Assembly (NCBI GenBank): GCA_019694595.1
Contig: JAIBBQ010000024.1
Coordinates: 1-49,940 of the forward strand
Length of the DNA stretch: 49,940 bases
Direction: 5' to 3'
Origin: Myxococcaceae bacterium
GTDB lineage: Bacteria; Myxococcota; Myxococcia; Myxococcales; Myxococcaceae
The notes beneath the pieces were generated by a model. That model did no database searches, was not told where the DNA came from, and saw only the letters and a program-made list of their open reading frames with translations. Shown here one piece after another: positions 2,970-27,540 of the stretch; the first letter of the stretch is position 1, and every line of letters begins with the position of its first letter. The position numbers were made by a program, and so were the translations under genes.

Positions 2970-3130
2970 GTGGAATTGTCGTCGGCGGAACCATGTAGGT
3001 TGCGCGCGCACAGCCACAAAAACGGCATGTCTTTCATGTGCTTGCGCGGCCGCGACCGCCAAATGGTTTGACAGCTCCTGGCTGGACGGACCGCGCCCGT
3101 CCGGACGAAGCTCCTGGCTGAGTCCGAACG
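2970..3130. promoter_or_regulatory. Divergent intergenic region between the two protease-like genes, with repeats
   Basis: These 161 bp must hold the start signals of both divergent genes. A perfect 12-bp direct repeat AGCTCCTGGCTG occurs at 3073-3084 and 3109-3120, so the copies are 36 bp apart. Between them lies an inverted repeat GGACGG (3084-3089) / CCGTCC (3097-3102). A consensus-like TTGACA sits at 3068-3073 on the plus strand, but no -10 element is found at 16-18 bp from it. The arrangement looks like an operator region; the binding protein is unknown. Confidence 0.4.
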
Positions 3131-6044: not shown

Positions 6045-7431
6045 CGTAGGCCTCCGTGTGGATCAGCTCGTGGAGCATCTTCTGCACGCTGTAGGTGTTC
6101 TCGTTCTTGAGCCGCTTCCACAGCTTCACGAACTCGTCGTTCTGGTCGGGCGTGGGCGGCCCGCCCATGAGCAGCTTCCAGTAGTCCATCACCGTGTTGG
6201 CGGCGAAGGCGTCGCTGTCGGCCGCGACCCGCGCCCAGCCCTTCAGGTCATTGACCGGCTGCCCGAGGATGTACCCCTTCTCGGGGATCTGGCTGATGTT
6301 GGGCGCCAGCCCCGCGAACTGGGTCTCGATGCGGTTCGGCACGTACTGCTCGGGGTTGGGGTTGGTGAGGCCGTTGTAGTTGCGGAACGGGTAGCTCAGC
6401 GGGTCGAGCGTGGCGTGGCACTGCGAGCAGAGCGCGCCTTGCACGCCCTTGGCGTCGTAGTCCTTGGGCTCGTTGGGAATCGGGTAGAGCCCTTCCTGCT
6501 TGGCGATGTCGAGCCCGAGGTACGCGCGGTAGCCCTGCGCGGCGGCGTTGCGCGGCAGCGCGGTGAACATCACGAAGTAGGCGAGCGACCACGCCGACGA
6601 CAGGTTGCCCGCGCGGTGGGCCTGGTCGACGCCCTGCCCGGCCCGGTTCGCCACCTTGGAATAGACGGTCGGGCCGGTGCCGGCGCGGGTGACGAAGAAG
6701 TCGGCGGTGAGCACGTCGCGGGCGTCGTGGTCGTCGATCTGCGACCAGGTGTAGAGCGCGTAGTCGTCGTAGTAGTCGGCGAGCGGCACCAGGCCTTTTT
6801 CCTCGCTGCCCGACTTGAGCGTGCCCACCGGGCGGATCTTCTTGTGGGCCAGCTCCCACACCTGGCCGTTCTTGCCCCGCCAGAAGTCCGACTTGAGGCA
6901 GGTGTCGAGCAGCGCGTCGAGCCTGGCCGTCTGGTCGCTGGACTTCGCGAACGCCTCCAGCGCGTCGTAGGTCGGCGAGAAGCCGCAGAAGTCGAGCTGC
7001 ACCTTGCGGAACAGGTAGCGGTTGTCGACGGTGCACACCGCGTAGCCGGGGTTCTTCGGGCCGTCGCAGGGCCCCAGCGGCGCGGGGAAGCTGCGCGGGT
7101 CACCAGGGAACGTGCCGCGCTGGATCTCGAGCAGGTTGGAGTACCCGTCGCCGTCGCTGTCGGCGCTCTCCGCCGCGCCCAGGGCCGCCGGCAGCGCCAT
7201 GGAGAAGTCGCCGTCGGACAGCGGGCGGGGCGCGGTGGGTACCAGCGCCGTCTCCACCTTCGCGCCGTACGCGTTCCGCGTGGGGGGCGAGGAATGGCAG
7301 TACGTGCAGGCCGGCTGGCCGCCCGTGCACACCGGTGCGGTGGGGTACTTGGTGCAGAAGACCCCGGGAGCCGGGGGCTTGGCGAGCGCGAGGGCAGGCA
7401 GGAGCGCGAGAACCAGCGTTCCGAGGCGCAT
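6034..7431 (-). CDS. Exported dihaem cytochrome c, DUF1588/DUF1592-like
   Basis: 465 residues from ATG 7431, which has AAGGA six bases upstream; a start 30 bases further upstream would put a charged extension before the signal peptide. Residues 1-17 form a Sec signal peptide. Two c-type haem motifs are present: CTYCH (42-46) and CSQCH (335-339). The second lies in a CSQCHATLDPLSYPF block that is characteristic of the DUF1588 domain. Residues 91-100 (DSDGDGYSNL) look like a calcium-binding thrombospondin type-3 repeat. It is the first gene of the operon with the lipoprotein and the DUF1501 protein. Function in electron transfer or oxidation of an unknown substrate is inferred from the haems and family context. 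Confidence 0.82.
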   Translation of the reverse strand: MRLGTLVLALLPALALAKPPAPGVFCTKYPTAPVCTGGQPACTYCHSSPPTRNAYGAKVETALVPTAPRPLSDGDFSMALPAALGAAESADSDGDGYSNLLEIQRGTFPGDPRSFPAPLGPCDGPKNPGYAVCTVDNRYLFRKVQLDFCGFSPTYDALEAFAKSSDQTARLDALLDTCLKSDFWRGKNGQVWELAHKKIRPVGTLKSGSEEKGLVPLADYYDDYALYTWSQIDDHDARDVLTADFFVTRAGTGPTVYSKVANRAGQGVDQAHRAGNLSSAWSLAYFVMFTALPRNAAAQGYRAYLGLDIAKQEGLYPIPNEPKDYDAKGVQGALCSQCHATLDPLSYPFRNYNGLTNPNPEQYVPNRIETQFAGLAPNISQIPEKGYILGQPVNDLKGWARVAADSDAFAANTVMDYWKLLMGGPPTPDQNDEFVKLWKRLKNENTYSVQKMLHELIHTEAYGAP

Positions 7432-12248: not shown

Positions 12249-12866
12249 GTGGAGCATCGGCGCGTGGGTGCTTCCCTGAGCCTCGTCGCAGTGCTGGCGC
12301 TGCTGTCCTCGGGCTGTCTCCCCCGGGTCGGCGAGGCCGTCGATGCGGGGCAGATGGACGCGGGCGACGGCGGTGGCGTGACGCCAGGGTGCATGGATCG
12401 CGTTCGTTCCGGCGATGAAACGGGCGTGGACTGCGGCGGGAGCTGTGCTCCCTGCGAGAACGGAGCGGCCTGTGGCTCCGCACTCGACTGCCTGAGCGGC
12501 GTGTGCCTCAACCAGACGTGCGCGGCGGCCCCGGGGAACTGCGTCGGGTTCGGCGCCTGCTCCTCGTTCGTCGACCTCACCGCCGACGCGGCCAACCGCA
12601 CCATCACCTTCGGCGGAGGCAGCGAGCGGTACTCGCCAGCGTGCGTCCGCGTTCGCTTCGGGCAGACGGTGACCTGGAGCGGTTCCTTCGGAAACCACCC
12701 ACTCCGCGAAGCCTGCAGCCCGGTGCCTGGCGGGCTCACGGCGACCTCCGGTGCGAGCCACTCCGTCACCTTCGACAAGGCGCTCGGGGTCTTCGGTTTC
12801 TACTGCGACGTCCACGGCTCGAGCAGCGGCGCAGGCATGGCCGGGGCCGTCGAGGTCGTGCGGTGA
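12249..12866 (+). CDS. Cupredoxin (plastocyanin/azurin-like) lipoprotein with Cys-rich segment
   Basis: 205 residues if GTG 12249 is used. That start leaves room for a promoter opposite the 12179 gene and puts a compact signal peptide before the lipobox LSSGC (Cys23). GTG 12183 is in frame too but would almost abut the divergent start. Residues 48-91 form a Cys-rich block of the GVDCGGSC type seen in myxobacterial surface proteins. The C-terminal 75 residues look like a type-1 copper domain: His150 in NHPL, Cys186 and His189 in FYCDVH, and Met197 in GAGM. It should be an exported electron carrier or copper-binding protein. Its stop overlaps the start of the kinase gene (GTGA), indicating coupled translation. 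Confidence 0.78.
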   Translation: MEHRRVGASLSLVAVLALLSSGCLPRVGEAVDAGQMDAGDGGGVTPGCMDRVRSGDETGVDCGGSCAPCENGAACGSALDCLSGVCLNQTCAAAPGNCVGFGACSSFVDLTADAANRTITFGGGSERYSPACVRVRFGQTVTWSGSFGNHPLREACSPVPGGLTATSGASHSVTFDKALGVFGFYCDVHGSSSGAGMAGAVEVVR

Positions 12867-14701
12867 GCATGCTGCTGCGGTGCCCCAGCTGTCAGCGGGA
12901 ACACCCCCCGGGCACGGTGGTCTGCCCGAACGATCTCACCGAGCTCATCCCCGCGGGAGTGGACCCGCTCCTCGACCAGGTGATCGGCCCGTACCGGGTG
13001 GTGCGACGGCTGGGCGTGGGCGCGATGGGCGCGGTCTACGAGGCCGTCGACCAGCTGATCGACCGCCGGGTGGCGCTCAAGCTGCTGCACCTGGCGATGG
13101 CGGAGAACCCCGACCTGACGTCGCTCCTGCGGGAGGCCAAGGCGGTCAACGCGATTCACCACCCGGGCATCGTCGACATCCAGGCGTTCAGCGAGACCCC
13201 GGAAGGGCGCCAGTACCTGGTGATGGAGCTGCTCGAAGGCGAGCTGCTGTCGGCGAGGCTGGCGCGCGGGCCGCTGCACCTCGCGGAGGCCGCGGAGATC
13301 GCCATTCCGCTGCTCGACGCGCTCGAGGCCGCGCACGGGGCGGGCCTGGTCCACCGCGACCTGAAGCCGTCGAACGTGTTCCTGGCGCGCGGGCCCAACC
13401 AGGAACTGCGCCCCAAGCTGCTCGACTTCGGGCTCGTGCTCCCGGTCGCCACCAAAGGCTCCTTCGCCGTCGGCACGCCCGACTACGTCGCCCCCGAGCA
13501 GGCGAAGAACGAGCGCGCGGGGCCCAAGGCCGACCTCTTCTCCTTCGGCGTGATGCTCTTCGAGATGCTCACCGGCAAGCTGCCCTTCGGCGGCGGCACG
13601 GTAAACGAGGTGCTGCAGCGCCGCATGTCGGGCCCCACCAGCCACGTGCGCGACACGCTGCCGAGCCTGCCGCGATCGGTGGACACGCTGATCCACGCGC
13701 TCCTGCAGCCGCAGCCGTCGTCGCGGCCGGTGTCGGCCGCCGCGGTGCGGGACGTGCTGAAGAAGGCCGTCGACCCGGGCGCGCTCGACGTCGCGCCAGC
13801 CCCGCCGTCGCGGCGCGGCGTGACCGCCGTGCTGGCCGCCGCCGCGGTGCTCGCCATCACCGGTGCGGCGGTCTGGTGGCTGCGAGATGACGGGCCGCCG
13901 CCGCCACCGCCCCCCCCGGTGGAAGACCCGGCCGAGCGCACCGCGCGCCGGCTCGACGAGCTGCTCTCCCGGGCGGGCGCCGACGCGGGCATCGCCGAGA
14001 TCGACGCCCTGCTGGCAGCCGAGCGGACGTACCCCAGGTTCGGCGGGTGGTCCGAGCGGCGGAACACCCTCGCCGCACTGCTGCGGCGCGAAGGAGAGCA
14101 TGCGCTCGAGCACGGCGCGCTGGACACCGCGACCCGGGCCATCGCCGGCCTCCAGCGACTCGAGGAGCCCGCGAGCGCCCAGCCCCTCGCGGCCGAGCTC
14201 GCGCGGCTCGAGTTCGGCGCCCGCGAAGGCATGCGCCGCATCGGCCCGGTGCTGATCGACGCGTACGAGTACCCCAACCGTGCGGGGGGCATGCCCACCG
14301 CCAAGGTCGACCACGCGGACGCGGTCGCGCTCTGCACCAAGGCGGGCAAGCACCTGTGCACCGAGCAGGAATGGGAGTTCGCCTGCGCCGGCGCCTCGCA
14401 CCGCACCTTCCCCACCGGCAACGAGCCGCCGCGCGGGCGCTGCCGCACCTCGGGCAAGAAGGCGAAAGGGCCGGTGCCGTCGGGGTCCCTGAGCGGCTGC
14501 GTGACCCCCGAAGGCGTGTTCGACCTCGCCGGGAACCTCGCGGAGTGGACCGACACGCCGTACCGCGAGGGCGCGGCGCAGCGCGTGGTGCGCGGCGGCT
14601 CGTACAAGCAGGCCGACGCGGCGACCGCCTGTCTCGCGCGCGACTACCTGCTGCCTGGGCTGGGCGGCCGCAAGGAACTCGGGTTCCGCTGCTGCCGCTG
14701 A
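12863..14701 (+). CDS. Membrane Ser/Thr protein kinase fused to a SUMF1/FGE-like domain
   Basis: 612 residues from GTG 12863, which has GAGG seven bases upstream; ATG 12869 is an alternative. Domains in order: a short zinc-ribbon-like CPSC...CPND (residues 7-24), then a PknB-type kinase of about 45-300 with loop GVGAMGAVYE, Lys73, Glu91, HRDLKPSN (164-171), DFG (188-190) and APE. All catalytic residues are present, so it should be active. A membrane helix follows at about 319-340, then a Pro-rich linker, a helical spacer and a C-terminal formylglycine-generating-enzyme-like domain (KHLCTEQEWEFAC, GVFDLAGNLAEWTD, VVRGGSY, LGFRCC). The first Cys of the Cx4C copper site of true FGE is missing, so that domain is probably a binding or sensor module outside the cytoplasm. 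Coupled to the cupredoxin gene. Confidence 0.9.
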   Translation: MSMLLRCPSCQREHPPGTVVCPNDLTELIPAGVDPLLDQVIGPYRVVRRLGVGAMGAVYEAVDQLIDRRVALKLLHLAMAENPDLTSLLREAKAVNAIHHPGIVDIQAFSETPEGRQYLVMELLEGELLSARLARGPLHLAEAAEIAIPLLDALEAAHGAGLVHRDLKPSNVFLARGPNQELRPKLLDFGLVLPVATKGSFAVGTPDYVAPEQAKNERAGPKADLFSFGVMLFEMLTGKLPFGGGTVNEVLQRRMSGPTSHVRDTLPSLPRSVDTLIHALLQPQPSSRPVSAAAVRDVLKKAVDPGALDVAPAPPSRRGVTAVLAAAAVLAITGAAVWWLRDDGPPPPPPPPVEDPAERTARRLDELLSRAGADAGIAEIDALLAAERTYPRFGGWSERRNTLAALLRREGEHALEHGALDTATRAIAGLQRLEEPASAQPLAAELARLEFGAREGMRRIGPVLIDAYEYPNRAGGMPTAKVDHADAVALCTKAGKHLCTEQEWEFACAGASHRTFPTGNEPPRGRCRTSGKKAKGPVPSGSLSGCVTPEGVFDLAGNLAEWTDTPYREGAAQRVVRGGSYKQADAATACLARDYLLPGLGGRKELGFRCCR

Positions 14702-14703
14702 TC

Positions 14704-15288
14704 TCAGAACTGGCTCTTGAGGTACCGCTCGATCAGCTCCAGCTCGTGCGCGCTGATGCCCGAGCCGGTCTTGAGCCGCATGCGCTGCACGGTGGTGAGC
14801 GCGATCTCCAGCGAGTCGAGCTTGCGGTACACCCGCCCCAGCGTGTGGCACTTCGAGCAGCGCGCGCGGATCAAGGTCTGCACGCCTTCGTCGACGGCCG
14901 ATTCCAGCTCCGCGCCGGCGGCCACTTCCTTCGGGTCCACCACTCCCGCATCGACCGCCTCGGCGAGCACCGCGGGAATGACCGGCATCGAGACCCCGGC
15001 ATCGGGCTCGCCGGCGGGCTCGGGGCGCGTTCGATCGACACGGCTGGTCGTCGACGGCCCGCGGCGCAGGGTGCCCACCAGGAACCGCGCGAGCCAGGGC
15101 ACGTCGCTCTTGGCGATCAGCACCGGCGCCCGCAGGCGCTCGCGGGCGATCACCCGTTCCCACTGCGACACCGTCAGGTACGGCGCCTCCGCCACCTGGG
15201 CGGAGTGGCAATAGAGGCACTGGCGCTCGTAGCGCACGCGGGCGTTGGGCGGCTGCGCGAGGCTGAGAGCGAGCAGGAGCGCGAGCAT
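14704..15288 (-). CDS. Exported dihaem cytochrome c
   Basis: 194 residues from ATG 15288, two bases after the stop of the porin-like gene, so the two form one operon. The Sec signal peptide is MLALLLALSLAQ. Two haem motifs are present, CLYCH near the N-terminus and CSKCH in the C-terminal third, separated by an Asp/Ala/Pro-rich linker. The second module ends in ISAHELELIERYLKSQF, a common last helix of class I cytochromes c, and Met residues in MRLKTG are candidate axial ligands. It should be a periplasmic or surface electron carrier and is probably a partner of the haem-motif porin. It converges with the kinase gene; only two bases separate the stops. Confidence 0.85.
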   Translation of the reverse strand: MLALLLALSLAQPPNARVRYERQCLYCHSAQVAEAPYLTVSQWERVIARERLRAPVLIAKSDVPWLARFLVGTLRRGPSTTSRVDRTRPEPAGEPDAGVSMPVIPAVLAEAVDAGVVDPKEVAAGAELESAVDEGVQTLIRARCSKCHTLGRVYRKLDSLEIALTTVQRMRLKTGSGISAHELELIERYLKSQF

Positions 15289-15290
15289 GG

Positions 15291-16403
15291 TCAGTACGCG
15301 AGCACCAGGCCGATGCGGCCGACGTGGCGCACGTCGGAAGGGGCGCCGGTGAAGGTCCACAGCTCGTAGCCGAGCTTGAGCCCGGCGTGCTCGTGGGCGC
15401 GGAAGAGCACGCCCACCGTCTGGCGCACCGCCCCCGCGGTCGCGCCGGTGAGCTGGCTACCCGGCAGCGGCGCACCGAAGCGGTAGACGCCGTCGGACCG
15501 CGCGACAATCACCAGCGCATCGAGCGGCTCCCAGTCGACCTCCCCGTACCAGCCCACCTTGAGGAACCAGGGGTCGATGAGCGGCAGGGGGTAGCCGGTC
15601 ACCGAAGGGTCGAGGTCGGTCCTGCGGAAGAGGCCTTCGCCCCGGAAGGTGAACGAGCCCAGCCGGGCGTAGAGCTCGCCACCGCCCATGACGTACCAGC
15701 GGGTATCGCGAGCGTCGTAGGTGCCCGCACTGCCGGAAGCGCCGACCGCCCAGTCGTCGCCGGTGAGCACCAGCCGGCCGCCGAAGGCCGGCAGCCGGTT
15801 GTTGTCGAGGTAGAGGCGCGAGGCCGCGAAGTCGATGTCGTTGCTGCCCGCGAGCCCCTTCGAGCCGTAGACCGAGTAGTCGAGCGAGAGCTGCTCTCCG
15901 AGCTCGAAGCTCCCGAAGACCTCGGCGCCGTTGTCCACGTACGGAGCGGGGACGATGCCCAGGTTGAAGCCCGTGGGGCCGTACTCCAGCATGTCGCCCA
16001 TCGCGTACGGCATGGGCTTCGAAGGGGCCGCGAAGTTCGCCGGATCGTGGCGGGTGTTGAATTCCCCGAAAGGAACGTTGATGCGGCCCGCCCGCACGTT
16101 GAGCGCGGGGTGGAGCCGCAGCTCTCCGTAGGCCTGGTCGACTTCCAGGCCGTGGCAGCCGCCGCAGGCCTTCACGGTGAACGAGGTGCCGTGGCCCAGC
16201 TCCACGACGATCTTCTGGCTGATCTCGAAGGCCAGGCCAGCCAGGCCGAGCGGCGAGGGGTTGGTCGGCGGGTTGGGTCCGGAGATCAGCCGGTAGTCGA
16301 GCGTGGCCGACCCGGCGAAGACCGGCGTCGCCGCGTGGGCCGGCACGGCCGCCACCCACGCGACCAGGAACCACCCCAGGCGCTGAACGTTTCGCCCCGG
16401 CAT
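15291..16403 (-). CDS. Porin-like outer-membrane beta-barrel with a CxxCH haem motif
   Basis: 370 residues from ATG 16403 (GTG 16424 is an alternative). The signal peptide ends in VPAHA. The mature protein alternates amphipathic strands such as LNVRAGRINVP, LSLDYSVYGSKG, FGGRLVLTG and LDALVIVARSDGVYRFG. It ends in a strand closing with LAY, a hydrophobic/aromatic-rich terminus as in outer-membrane barrels of the phosphate-selective porin/OprO kind. Unusually, CGGCH lies between the second and third predicted strands, a canonical c-type haem attachment site. With the dihaem cytochrome encoded two bases downstream, it may let electrons cross or reach the outer membrane. That role is inference; a simple porin is the alternative. 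Confidence 0.78.
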   Translation of the reverse strand: MPGRNVQRLGWFLVAWVAAVPAHAATPVFAGSATLDYRLISGPNPPTNPSPLGLAGLAFEISQKIVVELGHGTSFTVKACGGCHGLEVDQAYGELRLHPALNVRAGRINVPFGEFNTRHDPANFAAPSKPMPYAMGDMLEYGPTGFNLGIVPAPYVDNGAEVFGSFELGEQLSLDYSVYGSKGLAGSNDIDFAASRLYLDNNRLPAFGGRLVLTGDDWAVGASGSAGTYDARDTRWYVMGGGELYARLGSFTFRGEGLFRRTDLDPSVTGYPLPLIDPWFLKVGWYGEVDWEPLDALVIVARSDGVYRFGAPLPGSQLTGATAGAVRQTVGVLFRAHEHAGLKLGYELWTFTGAPSDVRHVGRIGLVLAY

Positions 16404-17739: not shown

Positions 17740-19155
17740 ATGCGCGCCCAGGCGAGCGACCCCCACGCGACCCCTCCCTACGTCCTGCCCCGCGAGATCC
17801 TGAGCCAGTTCGACACCTCGGGCCCCAGGTACACGAGCTACCCGACGGCGCCGGAGTGGACCGCGAACTTTCCCCGCGAGCAGGCGGTCGCGCTGATCGA
17901 AGCGAACCAGCGCGAGCGGGCGAAGGTGCCGCTGTCGCTCTACGTGCACATCCCGTTCTGTCACAAGCTCTGCTGGTACTGCGGCTGCAACATGCAGGTC
18001 ACCCGCAACCCGGAGCTCGTCGAGCGCTACCTCGAGGCGCTGACGAAGGAGATCGGCCGCGTCGCGGCGCACGTCGACCTCAGGCGCGAGGTGGTGCAGA
18101 TCCACTGGGGCGGAGGCACCCCGACCTTCCTCGACCCCGCGCAGCTCGAGCGCCTGTTCCGCGCGCTCACCGCGCCCTTCACCGTCGCCAGGGGCGCGGA
18201 GATCTCGATCGAGGTCCACCCGCCGGTCACCACCTTCGCGCAGCTGGAGACGCTCGCGGCCCTGGGGTTCAACCGGCTGAGCCTGGGCATCCAGGACTTC
18301 GACCCCGAGGTGCAGAAGGCGGTGAACCGTCTGCAGCCGTACGAGCAGACGCGTGACCTCATCACCGAGGCGCGGCGGCTCGGCTTCCGGAGCATCAACG
18401 CCGACCTGATGTACGGGCTGCCGAAGCAGACCCCCGAGCGCTTCGCGCGCACGCTGGACCTGGTCGACACCCTGCGGCCCGAGCGCCTCGCGCTCTTCAA
18501 CTACGCCCACGTCCCGTGGATGAAGCCGCACCAGAAGCTCATCAAGGCCGAGGAGCTGCCGTCGGTGAACGAGAAGGTGTCCCTTCTCGAGCTCGCGGTG
18601 AACACGCTGGTCGCCCGCGGCTACCAGTACGTGGGCTTCGACCACTTCGCGCTGCCCGACAGCGAGCTCGCCGTGGCCCAGCGGGAACGCACGCTCCGGC
18701 GCAACTTCATGGGCTACACCACCTGCGCCGACAGCGACGTCTACGCCTTCGGGGTCTCCAGCATCAGCGACCTCAACGGGGCGTACCTGCAGAACGCGCG
18801 CACCCTGCCCGACTACCTCGAGCGCATGGAACACGACGGGCTGCCGGTGCAGCACGGCATGGCGCTGAGCGCCGACGACCAGCTGCGCCGCGACGTGATC
18901 AACGCCCTCGCCTGCCACGGCCACCTGGACACCGAGGCGCTCGGTCGCGCCCACGGCGTGGTGTTCGACGACTACTTCGCCGACGCCCTGCCGCGCCTGG
19001 AGCCGTTCCTGAAGCACGGCATCGTGGAGCGCACGCCCGGCGCCATCGACGTCACGCCGCGCGGGCGCATGCTGCTGAGGAACGTCTGCATGGTGTTCGA
19101 CGCCTATCTCGGGAAGCCCGCGGGCGCAGCGCGCCGCTATTCTCGGACCCTGTGA
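17740..19155 (+). CDS. hemN: Oxygen-independent coproporphyrinogen III oxidase
   Basis: 471 residues from ATG 17740, close to the usual 450-470. It is a radical SAM enzyme: Cys74, Cys78 and Cys81 in CHKLCWYCGC form the CX3CX2C cluster site with the extra Cys83 typical of HemN. Other family blocks are SGPRYTSYPTAPEW near the start, WGGGTPTFL (SAM binding), SLGIQDFDPEVQKAVNR, NADLMYGLPKQT and a C-terminal HemN domain. It decarboxylates two propionates of coproporphyrinogen III to give protoporphyrinogen IX without oxygen. hemJ, encoding the next step, follows after 10 bp, and the cbb3 oxidase locus lies 2 kb downstream. No FNR-type box was found upstream. Confidence 0.96.
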   Translation: MRAQASDPHATPPYVLPREILSQFDTSGPRYTSYPTAPEWTANFPREQAVALIEANQRERAKVPLSLYVHIPFCHKLCWYCGCNMQVTRNPELVERYLEALTKEIGRVAAHVDLRREVVQIHWGGGTPTFLDPAQLERLFRALTAPFTVARGAEISIEVHPPVTTFAQLETLAALGFNRLSLGIQDFDPEVQKAVNRLQPYEQTRDLITEARRLGFRSINADLMYGLPKQTPERFARTLDLVDTLRPERLALFNYAHVPWMKPHQKLIKAEELPSVNEKVSLLELAVNTLVARGYQYVGFDHFALPDSELAVAQRERTLRRNFMGYTTCADSDVYAFGVSSISDLNGAYLQNARTLPDYLERMEHDGLPVQHGMALSADDQLRRDVINALACHGHLDTEALGRAHGVVFDDYFADALPRLEPFLKHGIVERTPGAIDVTPRGRMLLRNVCMVFDAYLGKPAGAARRYSRTL

Positions 19156-19165
19156 GGGGCTCCCG

Positions 19166-19594
19166 ATGAGCTACCTGTGGGTGAAGGCGGTCCACGTGAT
19201 GGCCGTCATCTCGTGGATGGCGGGCATGCTCTACCTGTTCCGCCTCTACGTGTACCACGCGCAGGAAACGAACCCCGAGGTCATGGCGCGCTTCCAGGTG
19301 ATGGAACGGCGACTGCTGCGCGCCATCACCACCCCGGCGATGATCGTGGCGCTGCTCACCGGCGGCACGATGCTCTGGTGGCAGAGCGAGCTGCTCGCCT
19401 TCACCTTCATGCGCGCCAAGCTGGTGCTGGTGCTGGGCATGGTGGTGATGCACGGGCTGGGCGCCCGCTGGCGCAAGCAGCTCCTCACCGCACCCCACGC
19501 CCGGCCGCACCAGTTCTACCGGGTGATGAACGAGATCCCGACCGTGCTGATGATCGGCATCGTCATCTTCATCATCGTCAGGCCCTTCACGTGA
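19166..19594 (+). CDS. hemJ: Protoporphyrinogen IX oxidase HemJ
   Basis: 142 residues from ATG 19166, preceded by GAGGGG. It is a small membrane protein with four predicted helices: 5-25, 52-75, 83-101 and 121-139. The family-typical histidine in WVKAVHVMAVISWMAGM and the Arg/Lys-rich MRAKLVLVLGM are present. HemJ oxidises protoporphyrinogen IX to protoporphyrin IX in organisms lacking HemG or HemY. It sits 10 bp after hemN, so this operon encodes two consecutive steps of haem synthesis. Confidence 0.93.
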   Translation: MSYLWVKAVHVMAVISWMAGMLYLFRLYVYHAQETNPEVMARFQVMERRLLRAITTPAMIVALLTGGTMLWWQSELLAFTFMRAKLVLVLGMVVMHGLGARWRKQLLTAPHARPHQFYRVMNEIPTVLMIGIVIFIIVRPFT

Positions 19595-19714
19595 CGAGAC
19601 GCCGCACGCGACAAATCTGCGCCCGGGCGCGGCGCGGCTGAAACAACTGCGCCCCGCCACCGCCGCCCCCTGGGGAAAGGCGCTGGCGCAGGGCTTGCTT
19701 CACGGTGGTTCATC

Positions 19715-20980
19715 ATGACCATCGTTTGCGCGACCCGCTTCACCGAAGAGTCCTCCAACGCGGTCAAGGTGGCGGCCGACCTCGCCCGCAAGCACCAGCA
19801 GCCGCTCTGGCTGGTGCACGTGCTGCCGTCCGGTGGCCTCAAGCCCTGGGCCGATCGGCTCGACGCGGCGGCGACCACCACCCTGGAGCACGAGGTGCAA
19901 GACCTCGGGCGGCGCGGGGTGACGGCGCAGTTCGCGATCCTCCACGGCAAGGTCGAGCAGGAGCTCGGCCGCTTCTGCGCCGAGAAGCAGGCGGCGCTGG
20001 TGGTGGTCGGCGACACCTCGAGGAGCCTCGGCCAGCTGCGAACCGGCGTGCTCGACCGCCTGTCGGCCACCGTCGCGGCCCCGTTGCTGGTGGTGCGCGA
20101 CCCGCGGCCCTTGCAGGCCTGGGCCAACGGCGCCGCCCCGCTCAAGGTGATGCTGGCGATGGACCACGGCTCGGGCAGCGCGGTGGCCCGCGACTGGATC
20201 ATCCGCCTCTCGGAGTACGGCCCCATCGACCTGGTCGCGACCCACGTGTGGTGGCCGCGCGAAGAGCTCGACCGGCGCAAACTTCCTGCCTCGACCGACG
20301 CCGAGGCGCTGAGCGCGCTGGGCAAGGTCATCCGCGCGGAGATGGCGGCAGAGCTCAACGGGCTGCCCGCCAAGGTGAAGCACCGGCTCCACGTCGAGCA
20401 CGGCGAAGGGCGCATCGGCGACCAGCTGCTCGCGCTCGCGGGTGAGGAACAGGTCGACGTGCTGGTCCTCGGCACCCACCAGCGCCGCGGGCTCGGCCGG
20501 CTGCTGTCGGTTGCCCACCGCGTGCTGTCGGAGGCGCCGATGTCGGTGGCCTGCATTCCCGGCCGCTCGACGGCGAACGATCTCGCCGCGGTGCCGTCGT
20601 TCCACACCGCGCTAGCGGCGACCGACCTGTCCGACCAGGGCAACCGGGCGATCGCCTGGGCGCTGGGCGTCGTCGGCCACGGCACCGTGCACGTCGCACA
20701 CGTATCGCCCGAGCCGTACTCGCCGGAGCGCGAGCGCACCATCCTCAAGAAGCTCGAGGCGCTGCTGCCGCCGGGCGCCGAGGCCGGCGGGGCCCGGGTG
20801 ATGTTCCACGTCTTCCACGGCGACGTGGTGCCGAGCCTCCTCAAGGCCAACGACTCGCTGGCGGTCGACGTGATCTGCCTGGGCGTCAACCCGACCCAGC
20901 CGCTCAAGAGCCAGGTGGTCACCGAGATGATGATGCGCTCCGGGAGGCCCGTGCTCCTGCCTCCCGCAGTCCGGTCCTAG
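19715..20980 (+). CDS. Universal stress protein with three Usp-like domains
   Basis: 421 residues from ATG 19715. Three Usp-like alpha/beta units can be traced at about 1-130, 142-284 and 297-421. Each starts with a strand such as IVCATRFTEES, VMLAMDHGSGSA or ALAATDLSDQGN and ends with a VVVGD, VLVLGTHQRRGLGR or VICLGV strand. Most Usp proteins have one or two units, so three is less common. The Gly-x2-Gly-x9-Gly-Ser/Thr ATP loop is incomplete in all three; the second is closest. Cytoplasmic. It may be a stress or redox-state protein belonging with the neighbouring haem and cbb3 genes, as Usp genes often accompany low-oxygen respiration. Confidence 0.85.
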   Translation: MTIVCATRFTEESSNAVKVAADLARKHQQPLWLVHVLPSGGLKPWADRLDAAATTTLEHEVQDLGRRGVTAQFAILHGKVEQELGRFCAEKQAALVVVGDTSRSLGQLRTGVLDRLSATVAAPLLVVRDPRPLQAWANGAAPLKVMLAMDHGSGSAVARDWIIRLSEYGPIDLVATHVWWPREELDRRKLPASTDAEALSALGKVIRAEMAAELNGLPAKVKHRLHVEHGEGRIGDQLLALAGEEQVDVLVLGTHQRRGLGRLLSVAHRVLSEAPMSVACIPGRSTANDLAAVPSFHTALAATDLSDQGNRAIAWALGVVGHGTVHVAHVSPEPYSPERERTILKKLEALLPPGAEAGGARVMFHVFHGDVVPSLLKANDSLAVDVICLGVNPTQPLKSQVVTEMMMRSGRPVLLPPAVRS

Positions 20981-21003
20981 CCGGCGACGGCGCGGGACCA
21001 GGG

Positions 21004-21039
21004 CGCGCACTCCGGGCCTTCGGCCTCCCGGAGTGCGCG
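21004..21039. terminator. Hairpin between convergent genes, probable bidirectional terminator
   Basis: CGCGCACTCCGGG (21004-21016) pairs perfectly with CCCGGAGTGCGCG (21027-21039), a 13-bp stem around a 10-base loop. It lies between the convergent stops at 20980 and 21065. A T-rich run (CATCGTTTCTC) follows on the plus strand but is weak. Confidence 0.7.
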
Positions 21040-21064
21040 TCATCGTTTCTCGACGGCACCTGCT

Positions 21065-21736
21065 TCAGCGACAGTCCGGGGGGCCGTCGGCATGCTCGCC
21101 GAACTTGAGCGCGCGGAAGGCCACCACCGCGGCAGCCCCGAGCAGCATCACCCGGCGCCAGCGCTGGGCCCGCGCCCCGAGCATTCCCGCCGCGCCGCCC
21201 CACAGGCCCTGCATCGCCAGGAGCGCCGGCACCGCCCCGAGCGCGAACGCAGCCATCAGCGCCGCGCCCAGCAGCGCGCTGCCCATGCCCGCCGCGGAGA
21301 TGGCGGCGCCGAGCACCAGTCCACAGGGCAGCAAGGGGGTCAGCGCACCGAATGCAGCCGCGCGGGTGGTGGGCGAAAATCTTGCGCTCACCCGGGTCAC
21401 CGAACGGCGCACGGCCGCCAGCCCAGGCAAGTCCGGGAGACGGCGGGGAAACTCCAGCGCGCTCGCCGTGAGGCCGGCCACCACCAGCCAGGGGGCCGCC
21501 TGCAGGAGCTGCGGCGCGACGCCCAGCAGGGCGCTCCCGGCGGCCCCTGCCGCGGCGCCCACGGCCGCGTAGCCGCCCGCCCGCCCGAGCTGCCAGGCCA
21601 CGGCAGCGGACAGGCGGCCCTGGCCCTTCGGCAGGGGAACGCACGCCAGGGGCCCGCACATGCCCGCACAATGCAGACTTCCACCGAGACCGCTGAGCGA
21701 CGCAGCGGACAGCGCCGCGACGGTGAAGGCATCCAT
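21065..21736 (-). CDS. SafE/TauE-type membrane protein of the cbb3 locus (CcoH/cytochrome-maturation-associated family)
   Basis: 223 residues from ATG 21736. The N-terminus has the motif LHCAGMCGPL typical of the 'sulfite exporter TauE/SafE' family members found beside ccoI and cbb3 genes, followed by about six hydrophobic helices and the LTPLLPCGLVLG block with another Cys. Members next to cbb3 genes are thought to help copper delivery or cytochrome biogenesis; the HCxGMCG Cys residues could bind metal. It diverges from ccoI with only 60 bp between the starts, so both may share regulation. Precise function inferred from context. Confidence 0.82.
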   Translation of the reverse strand: MDAFTVAALSAASLSGLGGSLHCAGMCGPLACVPLPKGQGRLSAAVAWQLGRAGGYAAVGAAAGAAGSALLGVAPQLLQAAPWLVVAGLTASALEFPRRLPDLPGLAAVRRSVTRVSARFSPTTRAAAFGALTPLLPCGLVLGAAISAAGMGSALLGAALMAAFALGAVPALLAMQGLWGGAAGMLGARAQRWRRVMLLGAAAVVAFRALKFGEHADGPPDCR

Positions 21737-21766
21737 GACCGGGACTGATTCAACGCCCGTGCCGTG

Positions 21767-21780
21767 GGCACGCCGCTTGC
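21767..21780 (+). promoter_or_regulatory. Possible sigma-54-type -24/-12 element before ccoI
   Basis: GGCACGCCGCTTGC has GG (21767-21768) and GC (21779-21780) exactly 10 bases apart and matches GGCACG-N4-TTGC. A problem is the position: a start point about 12 bases downstream would fall almost at the ATG (21797) and would exclude the GAAAGG ribosome site. An inverted repeat CGTGCC/GGCACG (21758-21772) overlaps it. Confidence 0.25.
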
Positions 21781-21796
21781 GAAAGGCTCCCGTCAC

Positions 21797-24196
21797 ATGG
21801 ATTCCCGCGCAATCGCCGACGCACGTTGTGCGCACTGCGGCAGCCCGATGCCCGCCGAGGTGGCGGACGCCCGGTATTGCTGCACCGGCTGCGCGGCGGT
21901 CGCGGAGCTGCTGCAGACGGAAGGGCTCGACCGCTACTACGAGCTCTCCCGCGGTGCGCGGGCGCCGTCGAGCCCGCCTCCGGAGCGCGGCCACGTGTGG
22001 CTCGAGGCCATGGTGCAAGCGGCGCTCGCGCAGTCGCCCACCCGCCCCTGCGTTCGGCTCGACGTGCAGGGCCTGCAGTGCGCCGCCTGCGTGTGGTTGA
22101 TGGAAGAGCTGTACCGCCGGCACGGCGGCACGGCGGGCCTCGAGGTCAACCCCGCGCTCGGCACCGCCACCCTGCACTTCGACCCCGGCTTCCCGGTCGA
22201 CGCCTGGGTGCGCCACGTGGAGCGCTTCGGCTACCAGTTCGGTCCGTCGCACGGGCGGAAGGCGGCCCGCACCGACGCGCTCGCGATGCGGCTCGGCATC
22301 TGCGCCGCGCTGACGGTCAACGTGATGCTGTTCTCGCTGTCCTTCTACCTGGGCCTGTCGGCGGCCGACGGCGACGTCTTCCCGCTCTTCGTCTGGCTGG
22401 GCCTGGGCCTCTCGACCGCCACCGCGCTCGTCGGCGGCTGGCCGTTCTTCTCCGCGGCGCTCAAGGGTCTGCGCACCGGGGTGCTGCACCTCGACCTGCC
22501 CATCGCCCTGGGCATCGCCCTGGTGTGGGGCGTGTCGGTGGCGCAGACGGTGAGCGGCCGCGGCCACCTCGCCTACCTCGACACGCTCAACGTCTTCATC
22601 ACCCTGATGCTGCTGGGGCGCTGGCTGCAGGCGCGGCTGGTGGAGCGCAACCGCCGCATGCTGCTCGACGACGACGGCGCCGACGGGCTCTGGGTGCGCC
22701 GGCTCGAAGGCACCGGACTGCGGAGCGTGTGCGCGCCGCGCATCGGCACGGGCGACCAGCTGCTCATCGCGCCGGGCGACGTGGTTCCCGTCGACGGACT
22801 CAACCGGTCGCCCCGGGCGCGCGTGTCCACCGAATGGATCAGCGGCGAGATCGCCTCCACCTTCGTCGGCCACCTCGCGCCGGTCCGCGCGGGCAGCGTC
22901 AACGCCGGGACCGAGGCCTTCGTGCTCGAAGCCACCCAGGACTTCGCCCGCTCGCCGCTGGTGTCTCTGCTGCGCCAGCCGGTGCCGGGCGCCGGCAAGG
23001 GCGCGCACGCCACCTTCTGGGACGCGCTCGCCCGCCGCTGGGTGGCCACGGTGCTCGGCGTCTCGTCGGTCGGCTTCCTGCTGTGGCTGCCCTTCGGCCT
23101 CGGCCGCGCCGTCGACGTGGCCGCGGGCCTCCTGGTGGTCACCTGCCCGTGCGCCATCGGGCTCGCCATTCCGCTGGCCTTCGAGCTCACCCAGCAGCGG
23201 CTGCGCCTGGGCGGCTTCTTCGCGCGGCGCGAAGATCTGCTCGACCGCTTGCTGCGGGTCCGCACCCTGCTCTTCGACAAGACGGGCACGCTGACCTTGG
23301 GCCAGCTCGAGCTGTCGAACCCCGACGCGGTGTGGCTGCTGGAACCCAAGGTGCGCGACGTCGCCTTCAACCTGGTCGCGCGCAGCAACCACCCGGTGAG
23401 CCGCTGTCTCTTCGACGCGCTCGAGCGCAGCGGCGCGTGCTTCGACGCCACGTTCGGCGCCACCGAGCACCCGGGAGCCGGGCTGGAATGGAAGCAGAGC
23501 GACGGCCCGACGTGGCGGCTCGGCCGGCCTGGCTGGGCCCTGGCCACGCACTCGCGCGGCGACTCGCGCGCCACGGTGCTCAGCCGCGACGGCCAGGCGG
23601 TGGCGTCGTTCGAGGTCCGGGAGCTGCTGCGCCGGGGCGCGACCGAGGAGCTGGCCGCCCTCTCCCGCCAGGGCCTCACCGCCTGGCTCATCTCCGGCGA
23701 TCGCCAGGAGCGCGTCAGCGCCCTCGCCGACCGGCTGGGACTCCCCCCCATCCACGCGCTGGGTGGCCTGAGCCCCGAGCGCAAGGCCGAGGTGGTGGCG
23801 CAGATCGACCAGCGCGACACGCTCTACCTGGGCGACGGGGTCAACGATGCGCTGGCCTTCGGCGCCGCCTACTGCGCCGGCACTCCCGCGGTCGACCGGC
23901 CGGTGCTCCCGGCCCGCAGCGACTTCTTCCTCCTCGGCGAAGGGCTGGGCGGCCTGCGGGTGGCCTTCGAAGGCGCCCGGAAGCTCCGCGCCACCGTGCA
24001 GCAGCTCCTGGGCATCGCGCTCGCCTACAACGTGGTGGCGGTCAGCGTGGGCCTGGCGGGCGGGCTGACCCCGCTCCGCGCCGCGGTGGCGATGCCGCTG
24101 AGCACCTTGTCCTTGCTCGCGTTCACGCTCTGGCGCCTGGGCGCCCAGCGCCGCGAGCGCATGCCGCGGCTCGCCCTGGCGGGAGCCCGGCCATGA
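21797..24196 (+). CDS. ccoI: Copper-translocating P1B-type ATPase CcoI
   Basis: 799 residues from ATG 21797 with GAAAGG upstream. Order: an N-terminal Cys-rich metal-binding segment CAHC...YCCTGC (11-32), a heavy-metal-associated domain with CAAC (95-98), membrane helices, an actuator domain, TCPCAIG (ion-binding CPC in a helix), DKTGTLT with the phosphorylated Asp, NHPVS (the HP motif of P1B pumps) and GDGVNDALAF. The N-terminal zinc-finger-like segment plus its place before ccoS and ccoNO identify it as CcoI/FixI, which exports copper for assembly of the cbb3 active site. Its stop overlaps ccoS (ATGA). Confidence 0.95.
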   Translation: MDSRAIADARCAHCGSPMPAEVADARYCCTGCAAVAELLQTEGLDRYYELSRGARAPSSPPPERGHVWLEAMVQAALAQSPTRPCVRLDVQGLQCAACVWLMEELYRRHGGTAGLEVNPALGTATLHFDPGFPVDAWVRHVERFGYQFGPSHGRKAARTDALAMRLGICAALTVNVMLFSLSFYLGLSAADGDVFPLFVWLGLGLSTATALVGGWPFFSAALKGLRTGVLHLDLPIALGIALVWGVSVAQTVSGRGHLAYLDTLNVFITLMLLGRWLQARLVERNRRMLLDDDGADGLWVRRLEGTGLRSVCAPRIGTGDQLLIAPGDVVPVDGLNRSPRARVSTEWISGEIASTFVGHLAPVRAGSVNAGTEAFVLEATQDFARSPLVSLLRQPVPGAGKGAHATFWDALARRWVATVLGVSSVGFLLWLPFGLGRAVDVAAGLLVVTCPCAIGLAIPLAFELTQQRLRLGGFFARREDLLDRLLRVRTLLFDKTGTLTLGQLELSNPDAVWLLEPKVRDVAFNLVARSNHPVSRCLFDALERSGACFDATFGATEHPGAGLEWKQSDGPTWRLGRPGWALATHSRGDSRATVLSRDGQAVASFEVRELLRRGATEELAALSRQGLTAWLISGDRQERVSALADRLGLPPIHALGGLSPERKAEVVAQIDQRDTLYLGDGVNDALAFGAAYCAGTPAVDRPVLPARSDFFLLGEGLGGLRVAFEGARKLRATVQQLLGIALAYNVVAVSVGLAGGLTPLRAAVAMPLSTLSLLAFTLWRLGAQRRERMPRLALAGARP

Positions 24197-24366
24197 GCGT
24201 GCTCCTGCTCCAGGTGTTCGTGAGCCTCATGCTGGTGGCGATCTCGGTGGCGTTCTTCGTCTGGAGCGTCCGCCGCCGGGAACCCGACCACGCCGACCGT
24301 CTCAGTCTCGCCCCCCTGGAAGACGAGCGCACCACGCTCGCCCCCTCAAACCGGAGAACGCCGTGA
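24193..24366 (+). CDS. ccoS: cbb3 oxidase assembly protein CcoS
   Basis: 57 residues, ATG at 24193 overlapping the ccoI stop (ATGA). One N-terminal membrane helix (LQVFVSLMLVAISVAFFVWSV) is followed by RRREPDHADRLSLAPLEDE, the charged tail typical of CcoS. CcoS is needed for cofactor insertion into CcoN. Its stop overlaps the GTG start of ccoNO (GTGA). Confidence 0.92.
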   Translation: MSVLLLQVFVSLMLVAISVAFFVWSVRRREPDHADRLSLAPLEDERTTLAPSNRRTP

Positions 24367-26822
24367 TCTCGCCGACACCACAGCCCGCCAACGCACCGAG
24401 TCCCAACACCATCCGCGTCGAGTACGACGACACCACGGTCCGCCGCTTCATGTTCGCGTCCGTGCTGTTCGGCGTGGTGGGCATGCTGGTCGGCCTGCTC
24501 GCGGCGACCCAGCTCGCCTGGTGGCAGGCGAACTTCAACCTGCCGTACCTGACCTTCTCGCGCATCCGGCCGCTGCACACCAACGCGGTCATCTTCGCGT
24601 TCGTCGGCAACATGATGTTCGCCGGCGTCTACTACTCGACGCAGCGCCTGCTGAAGACCCGCATGGCGAGCGACGCGCTCTCCAGCATCCACTTCTGGGG
24701 CTGGCAGCTGATCATCGTCGCTGCCGCCGTCTCCCTGCCGCTCGGGTTCAGCACCGGCAAGGAATACGCCGAGCTCGAGTGGCCGATCGACATCGCCATC
24801 GCGCTCATCTGGGTGGTCTTCGCCATCAACTTCTTCTGGACCCTGGCGAAGCGGAACGAGCAGCAGCTCTACGTGGCCATCTGGTTCTACATCGCCACCA
24901 TCATCACCGTGGCGGTGCTGCACATCGTCAACAGCCTCGCGCTGCCGCTGTCGCCGCTGAAGAGCTACTCCGCCTTCTCCGGCGTGCAGGATGCGCTGGT
25001 GCAGTGGTGGTACGGGCACAACGCGGTCGCCTTCTTCCTGACCACGCCGATCCTGGGGATCATGTACTACTTCCTCCCCAAGGCCGTCGGGCGACCGGTC
25101 TACTCGTACCGCCTCTCGGTGGTGCACTTCTGGTCGCTGGTCTTCATGTACATCTGGGCGGGCCCGCACCACCTGCTCTACACGTCGCTCCCCGACTGGG
25201 CGCAGTCCCTGGGCATGCTCTTCAGCCTGATGCTCTGGGCGCCGTCGTGGGGCGGCATGCTCAACGGCCTGCTCACGCTGCGCGGCGCGTGGAACAAGGT
25301 GCGCGAGGAGCCGGTGCTCAAGTTCTTCGCGGCCGGCGTGACCTTCTACGGCATGGCCACCTTCGAAGGGCCGCTGCTGTCGATCAAGTCGGTGTCGGCG
25401 CTGGCGCACTACACCGACTGGATCGTCGGCCACGCCCACGGCGGCGCGCTGGGGTGGAACGGGCTCATGGCGGCCGGCATGTTCTACTGGCTCACGCCGC
25501 GGCTCTTCGGCACCAAGCTGCACAGCAAGTCGGCGGCTGACGCCCACTTCTGGGTCGCCACCATCGGCATCATTCTCTACCTGGTCTCGATGTGGATCGC
25601 GGGCATCAACCAGGGCCTGATGCTGAAGGCGCTCAACCCCGACGGCAGCCTCCAGTACCCGAGCTTCGTCGAGACGCTGCTGGCGATCCGCCCGATGTAC
25701 ATCCTCCGCGCGGTGGGCGGGCTCCTCTACCTGGGCGGCTTCCTGCTCATGGCGTGGAACCTGATCATGACCGCCAGGAGCGGCAAGGCGGTCAACGGCG
25801 TGGCCGACGTGCTGCGCCGCGCCGACGCCGAGCCGAGCGCCACCGCCTTCGACGTGGTCAAGGGCCGGCCGATCTGGTTCTCGGTGCTCACCATCGCGGC
25901 GATGGTGGCCTTCGGCATGGCGTCGTCCACCGTGATGGCGGTGGTCATGATCGCGGTGCTGGCGGTCATCGGCGAAGGGGCCTACTTGCTCTCGCGCCGC
26001 GACAAGGCGGCGGGCAAGCCGTCGTGGTTCACCCTGGTGGAAGGCCGCCCGCTCGCCTTCGCGGTGCTGACGCTCCTCGCGGTGCTCGCGGGTGGCGTGG
26101 CCGAGCTGTTGCCCACCATCCTGGTGAAGCAGGCGGTGCCGGAGACCGGCGCGGCGCAGAAGCCGTACACCGCGCTCGAGCTCCAGGGCCGCGACATCTA
26201 CGTGCGCGAGGGTTGCTACACCTGCCACTCGCAGATGGTGCGCCCGCTGATCGGCGACACCCAGCGCTACGGCGAGGTCTCCCGCGCCGAGGAGTTCATC
26301 TACGACCACCCGTTCCAGTGGGGCTCCAAGCGCACCGGGCCGGACCTGCACCGCGCCGGCGGCCGGTACCCGAACCTCTGGCACTACAGCCACATGGTCG
26401 ACCCGCGCGCGGTGAGCCCGGGCTCGAACATGCCGTCGTTCGAGTACCTGGCGAGCATGCGGCTCGACACCGCCATCGCGCCCCGCAAGCTGGCGGCGAT
26501 GCAGAAGCTCGGCGTGCCGTACACCAACGCCGACCTCGAGCACGCGCTGGAGACGCAGAAGGCCCAGGCCGAGGTGCTGACCGCGGACCTCAAGACCCAG
26601 GGCATCGAGCTGGCGTGGGACACCGATCTCACGGCCATCATCGCGTACCTCCAGCGGCTGGGCCGCGACACCGGCGTGCCGCTGACCGCGCCGCCGCCGC
26701 CGACCGCGGTGGTTCCGCCGCCTGCGCCCGCGCCCGATCCGGCGGCCCCGGTGGCTCCCGCCGTGCCGGCCGACCCAGCAGCGCCTCCCGCGCCGGCGCA
26801 GCCGGTGGGAGGTGCGCCGTGA
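24363..26822 (+). CDS. ccoNO: cbb3 cytochrome c oxidase, fused subunits I and II (CcoN-CcoO)
   Basis: 819 residues from GTG 24363. Residues about 1-480 are CcoN: LHTNAVIFAF (low-spin haem His), WWYGHNAVAFF (CuB His and nearby Tyr), GPHHLLYTSLPDW (two CuB His) and VGHAHGGALGWNG (haem ligands). From about 590 on it is CcoO with one haem c site CYTCH (618-622) and SNMPSFEYL supplying the axial Met. Between them lie extra membrane helices that include two similar segments around GRP at 501-503 and 561-563. The C-terminus is Pro/Ala-rich. In most bacteria CcoN and CcoO are separate; here they are covalently joined. The enzyme reduces oxygen to water with high affinity in the inner membrane. Confidence 0.96.
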   Translation: MISPTPQPANAPSPNTIRVEYDDTTVRRFMFASVLFGVVGMLVGLLAATQLAWWQANFNLPYLTFSRIRPLHTNAVIFAFVGNMMFAGVYYSTQRLLKTRMASDALSSIHFWGWQLIIVAAAVSLPLGFSTGKEYAELEWPIDIAIALIWVVFAINFFWTLAKRNEQQLYVAIWFYIATIITVAVLHIVNSLALPLSPLKSYSAFSGVQDALVQWWYGHNAVAFFLTTPILGIMYYFLPKAVGRPVYSYRLSVVHFWSLVFMYIWAGPHHLLYTSLPDWAQSLGMLFSLMLWAPSWGGMLNGLLTLRGAWNKVREEPVLKFFAAGVTFYGMATFEGPLLSIKSVSALAHYTDWIVGHAHGGALGWNGLMAAGMFYWLTPRLFGTKLHSKSAADAHFWVATIGIILYLVSMWIAGINQGLMLKALNPDGSLQYPSFVETLLAIRPMYILRAVGGLLYLGGFLLMAWNLIMTARSGKAVNGVADVLRRADAEPSATAFDVVKGRPIWFSVLTIAAMVAFGMASSTVMAVVMIAVLAVIGEGAYLLSRRDKAAGKPSWFTLVEGRPLAFAVLTLLAVLAGGVAELLPTILVKQAVPETGAAQKPYTALELQGRDIYVREGCYTCHSQMVRPLIGDTQRYGEVSRAEEFIYDHPFQWGSKRTGPDLHRAGGRYPNLWHYSHMVDPRAVSPGSNMPSFEYLASMRLDTAIAPRKLAAMQKLGVPYTNADLEHALETQKAQAEVLTADLKTQGIELAWDTDLTAIIAYLQRLGRDTGVPLTAPPPPTAVVPPPAPAPDPAAPVAPAVPADPAAPPAPAQPVGGAP

Positions 26823-26998
26823 AGCAGGAGTTCTATCTGGGCATGCCGTACGTGGACCTGGCGCTGGTGGCGTTCGCCATCTTCGTCGGCGTCTTCCTGG
26901 CGGCGCTGCTGTGGCTCTTCAGCCGCCGCCGCGCCGAGCTCGACACCCTCGCCTCACTGCCTTTCGAAGACCACTCACCTCGGGAGACCACACCATGA
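26819..26998 (+). CDS. ccoQ: CcoQ-like small cbb3 subunit
   Basis: 59 residues starting at GTG 26819, overlapping the ccoNO stop (GTGA). There is one membrane helix, DLALVAFAIFVGVFLAALLWLF, followed by SRRRAELDTLASLPFEDH. Size, topology and position between ccoNO and ccoP fit CcoQ (FixQ), which stabilises the oxidase. Its stop overlaps ccoP (ATGA). Confidence 0.88.
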   Translation: MKQEFYLGMPYVDLALVAFAIFVGVFLAALLWLFSRRRAELDTLASLPFEDHSPRETTP

Positions 26999-27540
26999 AG
27001 AGCGACCGCCCTGGAGTCCTGCACGTCTTCGACGACATCGAAGAAGCGGACAACCACCTGCCGCTGTGGTGGCTCGCCACCCTGTTCGGCGCCATCGTCT
27101 TCTCGGCCGGCTACTGGTTGATGTTCCACACCATGCACCAGGCGAAGAGCCCGATGGAGGAGTACCGGGAAGAGGCCGAGGCGCACCGGGCGCAGCTCAA
27201 GCAGTCGGGCCCGTCGAGTGACGGCGTGCTGCTCGCGCTGTCCAAGGACCCGCAGGTGCTGAGCGAGGGCGAGAAGGTCTTCAAGACCAGCTGCGTCGCC
27301 TGTCACGGGCAGAACGGCGAAGGCGTGGTGGGCCCGAACCTCACCGACCGCTTCTGGATTCACGGCGGCGGGCCGCTCGCGGTGCACGCCTCGATCTCCC
27401 ACGGCTACCCGGACAAGGGCATGGCCGCGTGGGGGCCGGTGCTCGGCCAGGAGAAGGTGACCAACGTGTCCGCCTGGGTGCTCGCGCAGCGCAACAAGAA
27501 CCTCCCCGGCAAGGCCCCCCAGGGCACCGAGGAACCGTGA
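26995..27540 (+). CDS. ccoP: cbb3 oxidase subunit CcoP, single-haem form
   Basis: 181 residues from ATG 26995. The N-terminal part VFDDIEEADNHLPLWW plus one helix (LATLFGAIVFSAGYWLMF) is typical of CcoP (FixP_N). Only one haem site is present, CVACH (100-104), with a probable Met ligand in DKGMAAWG. Classical CcoP is near 300 residues with two haems, so one cytochrome domain is missing. The chain is otherwise complete, with a short tail. It passes electrons from donors to CcoO. The stop overlaps the ccoG start (GTGA). Confidence 0.93.
   Translation: MKSDRPGVLHVFDDIEEADNHLPLWWLATLFGAIVFSAGYWLMFHTMHQAKSPMEEYREEAEAHRAQLKQSGPSSDGVLLALSKDPQVLSEGEKVFKTSCVACHGQNGEGVVGPNLTDRFWIHGGGPLAVHASISHGYPDKGMAAWGPVLGQEKVTNVSAWVLAQRNKNLPGKAPQGTEEP

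Follow-up and report, generated by a model that had tools for sequence, protein, structure and literature searches.

A predicted outer-membrane barrel with a haem-attachment motif in its own chain, paired with a small cytochrome: a probable minimal electron relay in Myxococcota

The window analysed here, a stretch of 49,940 nucleotides of contig JAIBBQ010000024.1 from a Myxococcaceae bacterium (assembly GCA_019694595.1), encodes a predicted outer-membrane beta-barrel protein with a c-type haem-attachment motif in its own chain and, next to it, a small dihaem cytochrome. With a probability of roughly 65%, we consider that the two proteins form a trans-outer-membrane electron relay based on a monohaem barrel and functionally akin to Cyc2. 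What the analysis shows is the gene pair, the conservation of the motif, the predicted fold, a correlated loop insertion, and the genomic neighbours. The barrel gene and its motif are located as follows:

15291..16403, minus strand: haem-barrel gene, 370 amino acids, with a signal peptide and a 16-stranded OprP/OprO-type beta-barrel (AlphaFold, structure comparison)
16152..16166, minus strand: CGGCH, residues 80-84 of the haem-barrel, predicted in the beta3-beta4 hairpin; C-x-x-C-H-G is invariant in 39 of 39 aligned sequences

The 370-residue protein, as read from the DNA, has a signal-peptide-like N-terminus and an aromatic C-terminal residue. A preliminary description of this DNA had reported a signal-peptide-bearing barrel here; its coordinates, strand and N-terminus were exact, and structure prediction, one of the checks it had proposed, returned a real barrel, not a barrel-less fold, in which CGGCH could be located. 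The window protein contains just two cysteines, both within CGGCH. When this sequence was shuffled 200,000 times, any CxxCH arose in only 26 cases; since the motif is also invariant in all 39 aligned sequences, a chance origin was rejected. Searches of Pfam and NCBIfam with the window protein gave no match at E <= 1.

The AlphaFold model, calculated from the family alignment and without haem, has 16 strands, a mean pLDDT of 88.8, and a pTM of 0.84. Its nearest solved structures are OprP (Z 27.9) and OprO (Z 27.7), with about 14% sequence identity. Around the haem motif, at residues 81-90, the mean pLDDT falls to 75. CGGCH is flanked by predicted strands 73-82 and 85-98 and is therefore assigned to the beta3-beta4 hairpin; its presence in the barrel chain had been described correctly, while the position given for it, between strands 2 and 3, had not. 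In the model, all turns from even to odd strands are 2-5 residues long, and most loops from odd to even strands exceed this length, as would be expected of extracellular loops. The motif hairpin belongs to the second group, so that the model places CGGCH tentatively on the outward-facing side. At a rise of ~2.5 Å per residue, C80 is estimated to lie some 20 Å above the periplasmic rim. As a point against the relay, one barrel haem in a membrane roughly 25 Å thick would leave electrons a long hop unless that haem reaches well into the lumen and the partner binds nearby.

Profile searches detected the haem-barrel family at >200 bits in 28 of 193 Myxococcota genomes, Anaeromyxobacter among them; these whole-genome searches were not restricted to the motif, but the profile was built from motif-bearing members. 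Below the family there is a gap in bit scores, with the next relatives at about 100 bits or less. Homologues also turned up in relatives of the window. A motif-seeded scan of contigs, one part of the gene search, gave 35 named genome loci with homologues, nearly all from Myxococcota and many from MAGs. Named hosts are Anaeromyxobacter sp. PSR-1, A. oryzae, A. oryzisoli, A. soli, and A. terrae. Phyla beyond Myxococcota were covered by the motif-seeded scan only, which divergent members can escape. One contig (L084; G149 contig 117) carries two haem-barrel genes, at 6095-7267 and 18505-19932, in opposite orientation and ~11 kb apart. We found no description of this family in the open-access papers searched.

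Haem-barrel homologues are 33-64% identical to the window protein. The sequence K/R-x-C-x-x-C-H-G, with K or R at residue 78, occurs in all 39 aligned members, and C80, C83, H84, G85, R118, D120, P130, M135, and G136 are invariant; residue 138 is Met in 37 of 39. CxxCH keeps its position in every member that spans the region, preceded by 57-96 residues (signal peptide counted), and in 36 of the 39 the two motif cysteines are the sole cysteines of the mature protein. Conservation of the motif in homologues, a further check proposed in the preliminary description, thus extends through the whole family, close homologues included. Weak matches to Porin_O_P (PF07396) were obtained for 15 of the 39 members (best 4.6e-6), the window protein not being among them; one relative, L082, matches Porin_O_P above the cut-off.

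The second conserved region of the barrel is its long third loop:

15939..16076, minus strand: loop 3, residues 110-155, with invariant R118, D120, P130, M135, and G136
15963..16004, minus strand: 14-residue loop-3 insertion AMGDMLEYGPTGFN, residues 134-147, missing from relatives without CxxCH
15999-16001, minus strand: Met135, candidate distal haem ligand, Met in 39 of 39

Loop 3 ranks among the most conserved segments in the 39-sequence alignment. The insertion is missing in all 20 CxxCH-less relatives that were aligned with the family, and an equivalent of Met135 is missing in 19 of these, the exception being L107 with an aligned Met-Gly. The Met insertion thus accompanies the haem motif, and this co-occurrence provides the best sequence evidence both for haem binding and for Met135 as the likely distal ligand. 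The genome of the window organism also encodes a paralogous porin (L108; G000:C173:17500-22500, frame 1829-3265), in which CASCRG, a CxxC without His, is aligned with the haem-motif hairpin. It is followed by a small CGGCH-containing, lipoprotein-like cytochrome of the partner type (frame to 3561; 22 bits). CASCRG may be a degenerate or an unusual haem site.

The partner of the window barrel comprises the following elements:

14704..15288, minus strand: dihaem c-type cytochrome, 194 amino acids, 2 bases past the barrel stop, with two copies of the small partner domain
15205..15219, minus strand: first haem motif, CLYCH; in this domain, Glu replaces the presumed axial Met that relatives have
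14845..14859, minus strand: second haem motif, CSKCH, with a conserved R-M downstream (presumed Met ligand)

The distance of two bases between the barrel stop and the cytochrome, already noted in the preliminary description, was exact (ATG at 15288, read from the DNA). The window and L024-L058 make up 36 loci, three of which run into a contig end and were left out. In each of the other 33, which have room for it, a small-cytochrome profile detected a partner-type cytochrome next to the barrel. The joint conservation of CxxCH and cytochrome, which had also been suggested as a check, is therefore complete in this set. In 32 of the 33 loci the partner lies within 200 bp of the barrel; in L044 it is 2.6 kb away on the same strand. 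It is located upstream of the barrel in one well-supported clade and downstream elsewhere. Conversely, a partner-type cytochrome was not found in the examined flanks of 18 of the 20 CxxCH-less relatives.

This fixed partner carries one or two CxxCH motifs. The small-cytochrome profile matches the window protein twice, which identifies the latter as a duplicated partner domain; elsewhere there is one copy, sometimes as a lipoprotein. C54, C57, H58, and M80 of the domain are invariant. It is similar to monohaem cytochromes, for example SorB and those of the Chlorobi c-551 type, with matches to the solved structures 3a9f, 7uea_C, and 2blf_B at E values of 3.5e-6 to 1.7e-3. CxxCH, the downstream Met and this likeness to solved monohaem cytochromes characterize the partner as a class I-like c-type cytochrome. 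An AlphaFold model of the dihaem protein, made from 7 sequences, had a pLDDT of 55.5 and was set aside. In L039, the partner (+122 to +1205 after the barrel) has a long C-terminal extension that reads like a transglutaminase-type domain; the partner in the downstream gene of L051 is likewise extended.

On the other side of the cytochrome, two genes of the opposite strand follow the pair:

12869..14701, plus strand: Ser/Thr kinase with FGE-sulfatase domain, a convergent neighbour (Pfam, window copy only)
12291..12866, plus strand: cupredoxin lipoprotein, Copper-bind match just below the curated cut-off, with invariant His136, Cys172, His175, and Met183

This order, the pair and then kinase and cupredoxin on the opposite strand, occurs in the window clade. 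A kinase-like gene occupies the same place in L024, L026, L027, and L029, and the cupredoxin is syntenic in five genomes of the clade; it is a possible soluble electron carrier. Upstream of the barrel, also on the opposite strand, the window region 17740-28982 contains genes that by sequence reading are HemN-like, HemJ-like, and for a universal stress protein and a metal P-type ATPase, as well as a cytochrome-oxidase-like cluster.

A further point against the relay is that no multihaem cytochrome was found beside the pair in the window clade; MtrC/F-like cytochromes are present elsewhere in the window's own genome. In several Anaeromyxobacter species, MtrC/MtrF-like decahaem cytochromes adjoin the pair, and a 12-haem cytochrome occurs near it in L035. 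Among 40 relatives, MtrC/F-like cytochromes above the cut-off were detected in 9 of 9 barrel-bearing versus 17 of 31 other genomes (Fisher p = 0.016, uncorrected for phylogeny). The most telling neighbourhood is that of L082/L109, a relative whose barrel is without CxxCH: here, one gene run encodes a pentahaem cytochrome, a molybdopterin protein, Fe-S and NrfD subunits, a tetrahaem cytochrome, and the barrel, followed by a PSCyt1 lipoprotein, an MtrC-like decahaem cytochrome, and a partner-type small cytochrome. From its molybdopterin/Fe-S/NrfD quinone module onward, the segment L109:4897-17155 (G043 contig 27) looks like a complete extracellular electron-transfer operon.

Further genes recur around the pair. 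A lipoprotein of ~145 amino acids is encoded directly upstream of many haem-barrels (L034:6457-6897, L038:6406-6912, L040, L041, and others); it resembles the PSCyt1 protein of L109, yet often has CX4CH instead of CxxCH. In several loci it is preceded by a protein with an EB_dh domain (ethylbenzene dehydrogenase haem domain). Behind the pair, Anaeromyxobacter loci carry a SpoIIE phosphatase/HATPase/STAS-like trio (L034:8385-11177, L035, L038, L040, L041, and L110; Pfam on L034), a partner-switching-type set of regulators that may control the module.

The preliminary description had held that barrel and cytochrome are separate chains in the known conduits. This is not supported and overlooks Cyc2, a fused monohaem cytochrome-porin with a 16-stranded OprO/OprP-like barrel (PMC8406198); in addition, Geobacter sp. 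M18 has GM18_3465, predicted to be a porin-like outer-membrane cytochrome, with ten haem motifs and 21 strands (PMC4245776). The haem of Cyc2 resides in an N-terminal domain ahead of the barrel, predicted to form a periplasmic plug, with the motifs PxFAR[QK][TY] and PxL (PMC8406198). Hosts of Cyc2 include Acidithiobacillus, Mariprofundus, and Gallionellaceae. The haem-barrel shares with Cyc2 (PMC8406198, PMC10654088) the single CxxCH in the chain of an outer-membrane barrel, the 16 strands with OprO/OprP as the closest fold, and a putative periplasmic partner cytochrome, with a cupredoxin nearby in the window clade. Unlike in Cyc2, the motif is located inside the barrel, in the beta3-beta4 hairpin, loop 3 carries the Met insertion, and neither PxFAR[QK][TY] just ahead of CxxCH nor PxL four residues past it occurs in any of the 39 haem-barrels. 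With both sequence motifs and the N-terminal cytochrome domain missing, an identification as Cyc2 was rejected; the family is distinct from Cyc2, though it may function in a similar way. A DNA pattern for the Cyc2 signature gave no match in 195 Myxococcota genomes, a search run with no positive control, so that it is only suggestive of the absence of Cyc2.

With GM18_3465, the haem-barrel has in common a haem motif in a loop of the barrel chain itself; it differs from this single Geobacter case in having one motif, 16 strands, a phylum-wide distribution, and a fixed partner. As in MtrAB/MtoAB/PioAB and Pcc (OmbB-OmaB-OmcB), the barrel gene adjoins a gene for a c-type cytochrome, and in Anaeromyxobacter an MtrC-like decahaem cytochrome is nearby. 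The MtrAB barrel is haem-free, has 26 strands, and holds an inserted multihaem cytochrome (PMC8406198). The haem-barrel, by contrast, is small, with 16 strands instead of about 26, carries the motif itself, unlike the haem-free Mtr/Pcc barrels, and has a fixed partner with one or two CxxCH motifs in place of an inserted decahaem protein. Fold, strand number and the long loop 3 are those of the Porin_O_P (PF07396) proteins OprP and OprO, for which we know of neither a CxxCH nor a cytochrome partner.

One alternative, inward electron uptake as in Cyc2, is a direction-specific version of the relay: a dissolved reductant, e.g. Fe(II), would enter the barrel and reduce the haem, and electrons would pass via the dihaem cytochrome and cupredoxin to an oxidase. 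The single haem motif, the OprO/OprP-like fold, as reported for Cyc2 (PMC8406198), the cupredoxin syntenic in five window-clade genomes, reminiscent of Cyc2 with rusticyanin, and the parallel to the cyc2-cyc1-rus gene set (PMC10654088) speak for it. We nevertheless regard it as unlikely: the Cyc2 signature is absent from all 39 sequences, the haem motif is at the opposite, extracellular-type end, and the MtrC-like decahaem neighbours in Anaeromyxobacter and L109, together with the NrfD quinone-module genes of L109, fit outward flow better. To our knowledge, no iron-oxidation phenotype is known for organisms with a haem-barrel.

The protein might instead be a Porin_O_P-type solute channel, in which haem and loop 3 form a gate or sensor, its state set by the small cytochrome, and not a through-wire. 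The Porin_O_P-like fold with its weak Pfam matches, conserved Arg and Lys in the barrel, and regulators near several loci (the kinase; the SpoIIE/HATPase/STAS genes) are compatible with such a redox-gated porin, which the consistent pairing with a cytochrome and the decahaem and quinone-module neighbours make quite improbable. Highly improbable, in our view, is that the protein is an ordinary porin whose CxxCH binds a metal or forms a disulfide, with the adjacent cytochrome acting elsewhere. Haem attachment is deduced from sequence, and the L108 paralogue has CASCRG at the aligned hairpin; against this stand the invariance of His and the joint presence of motif, Met insertion and partner cytochrome, and CxxCH is the standard haem-attachment site of the Ccm/Ccs systems.

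For the preferred relay, we infer haem attachment, ligand, topology, docking, and electron flow with its direction as follows. The barrel would be exported by Sec and receive one c-type haem onto C80/C83 in the periplasm, with H84 as proximal ligand. The chain would fold to the 16-stranded OprP-type barrel, with the haem by the short hairpin of strands 3 and 4, either in the lumen or in the outer vestibule. The loop-3 insertion would close over the haem and provide its distal ligand, for which Met135 is the likeliest candidate. Docked on the periplasmic side, the small cytochrome would connect the barrel haem electronically to the periplasmic chain, whose link in the window clade is perhaps the cupredoxin. 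Outside, the redox partner of the barrel haem would be a multihaem cytochrome on the cell surface (Anaeromyxobacter) or a small soluble donor or acceptor. In Anaeromyxobacter and L109, the gene neighbours point to electrons flowing outward, towards surface cytochromes; the window-clade cupredoxin would fit electron uptake as well. The chances appear about even that this is a cytochrome-porin fusion arisen in Myxococcota independently of Cyc2, with the haem covalently held in an extracellular-side hairpin of a 16-stranded porin, capped by the constriction loop, and forming with one small cytochrome a two- or three-haem conduit far smaller than Mtr/Pcc.

If this reading is correct, a minimal trans-outer-membrane electron device would be widespread in Myxococcota, including the metal-reducing genus Anaeromyxobacter, and would represent a second route to a haem in a porin besides Cyc2. 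It would also offer a small two-gene system for study and engineering of extracellular electron transfer, and the KxCxxCHG hairpin together with the loop-3 MGxM would serve as a marker of electron exchange in soil and sediment myxobacteria.
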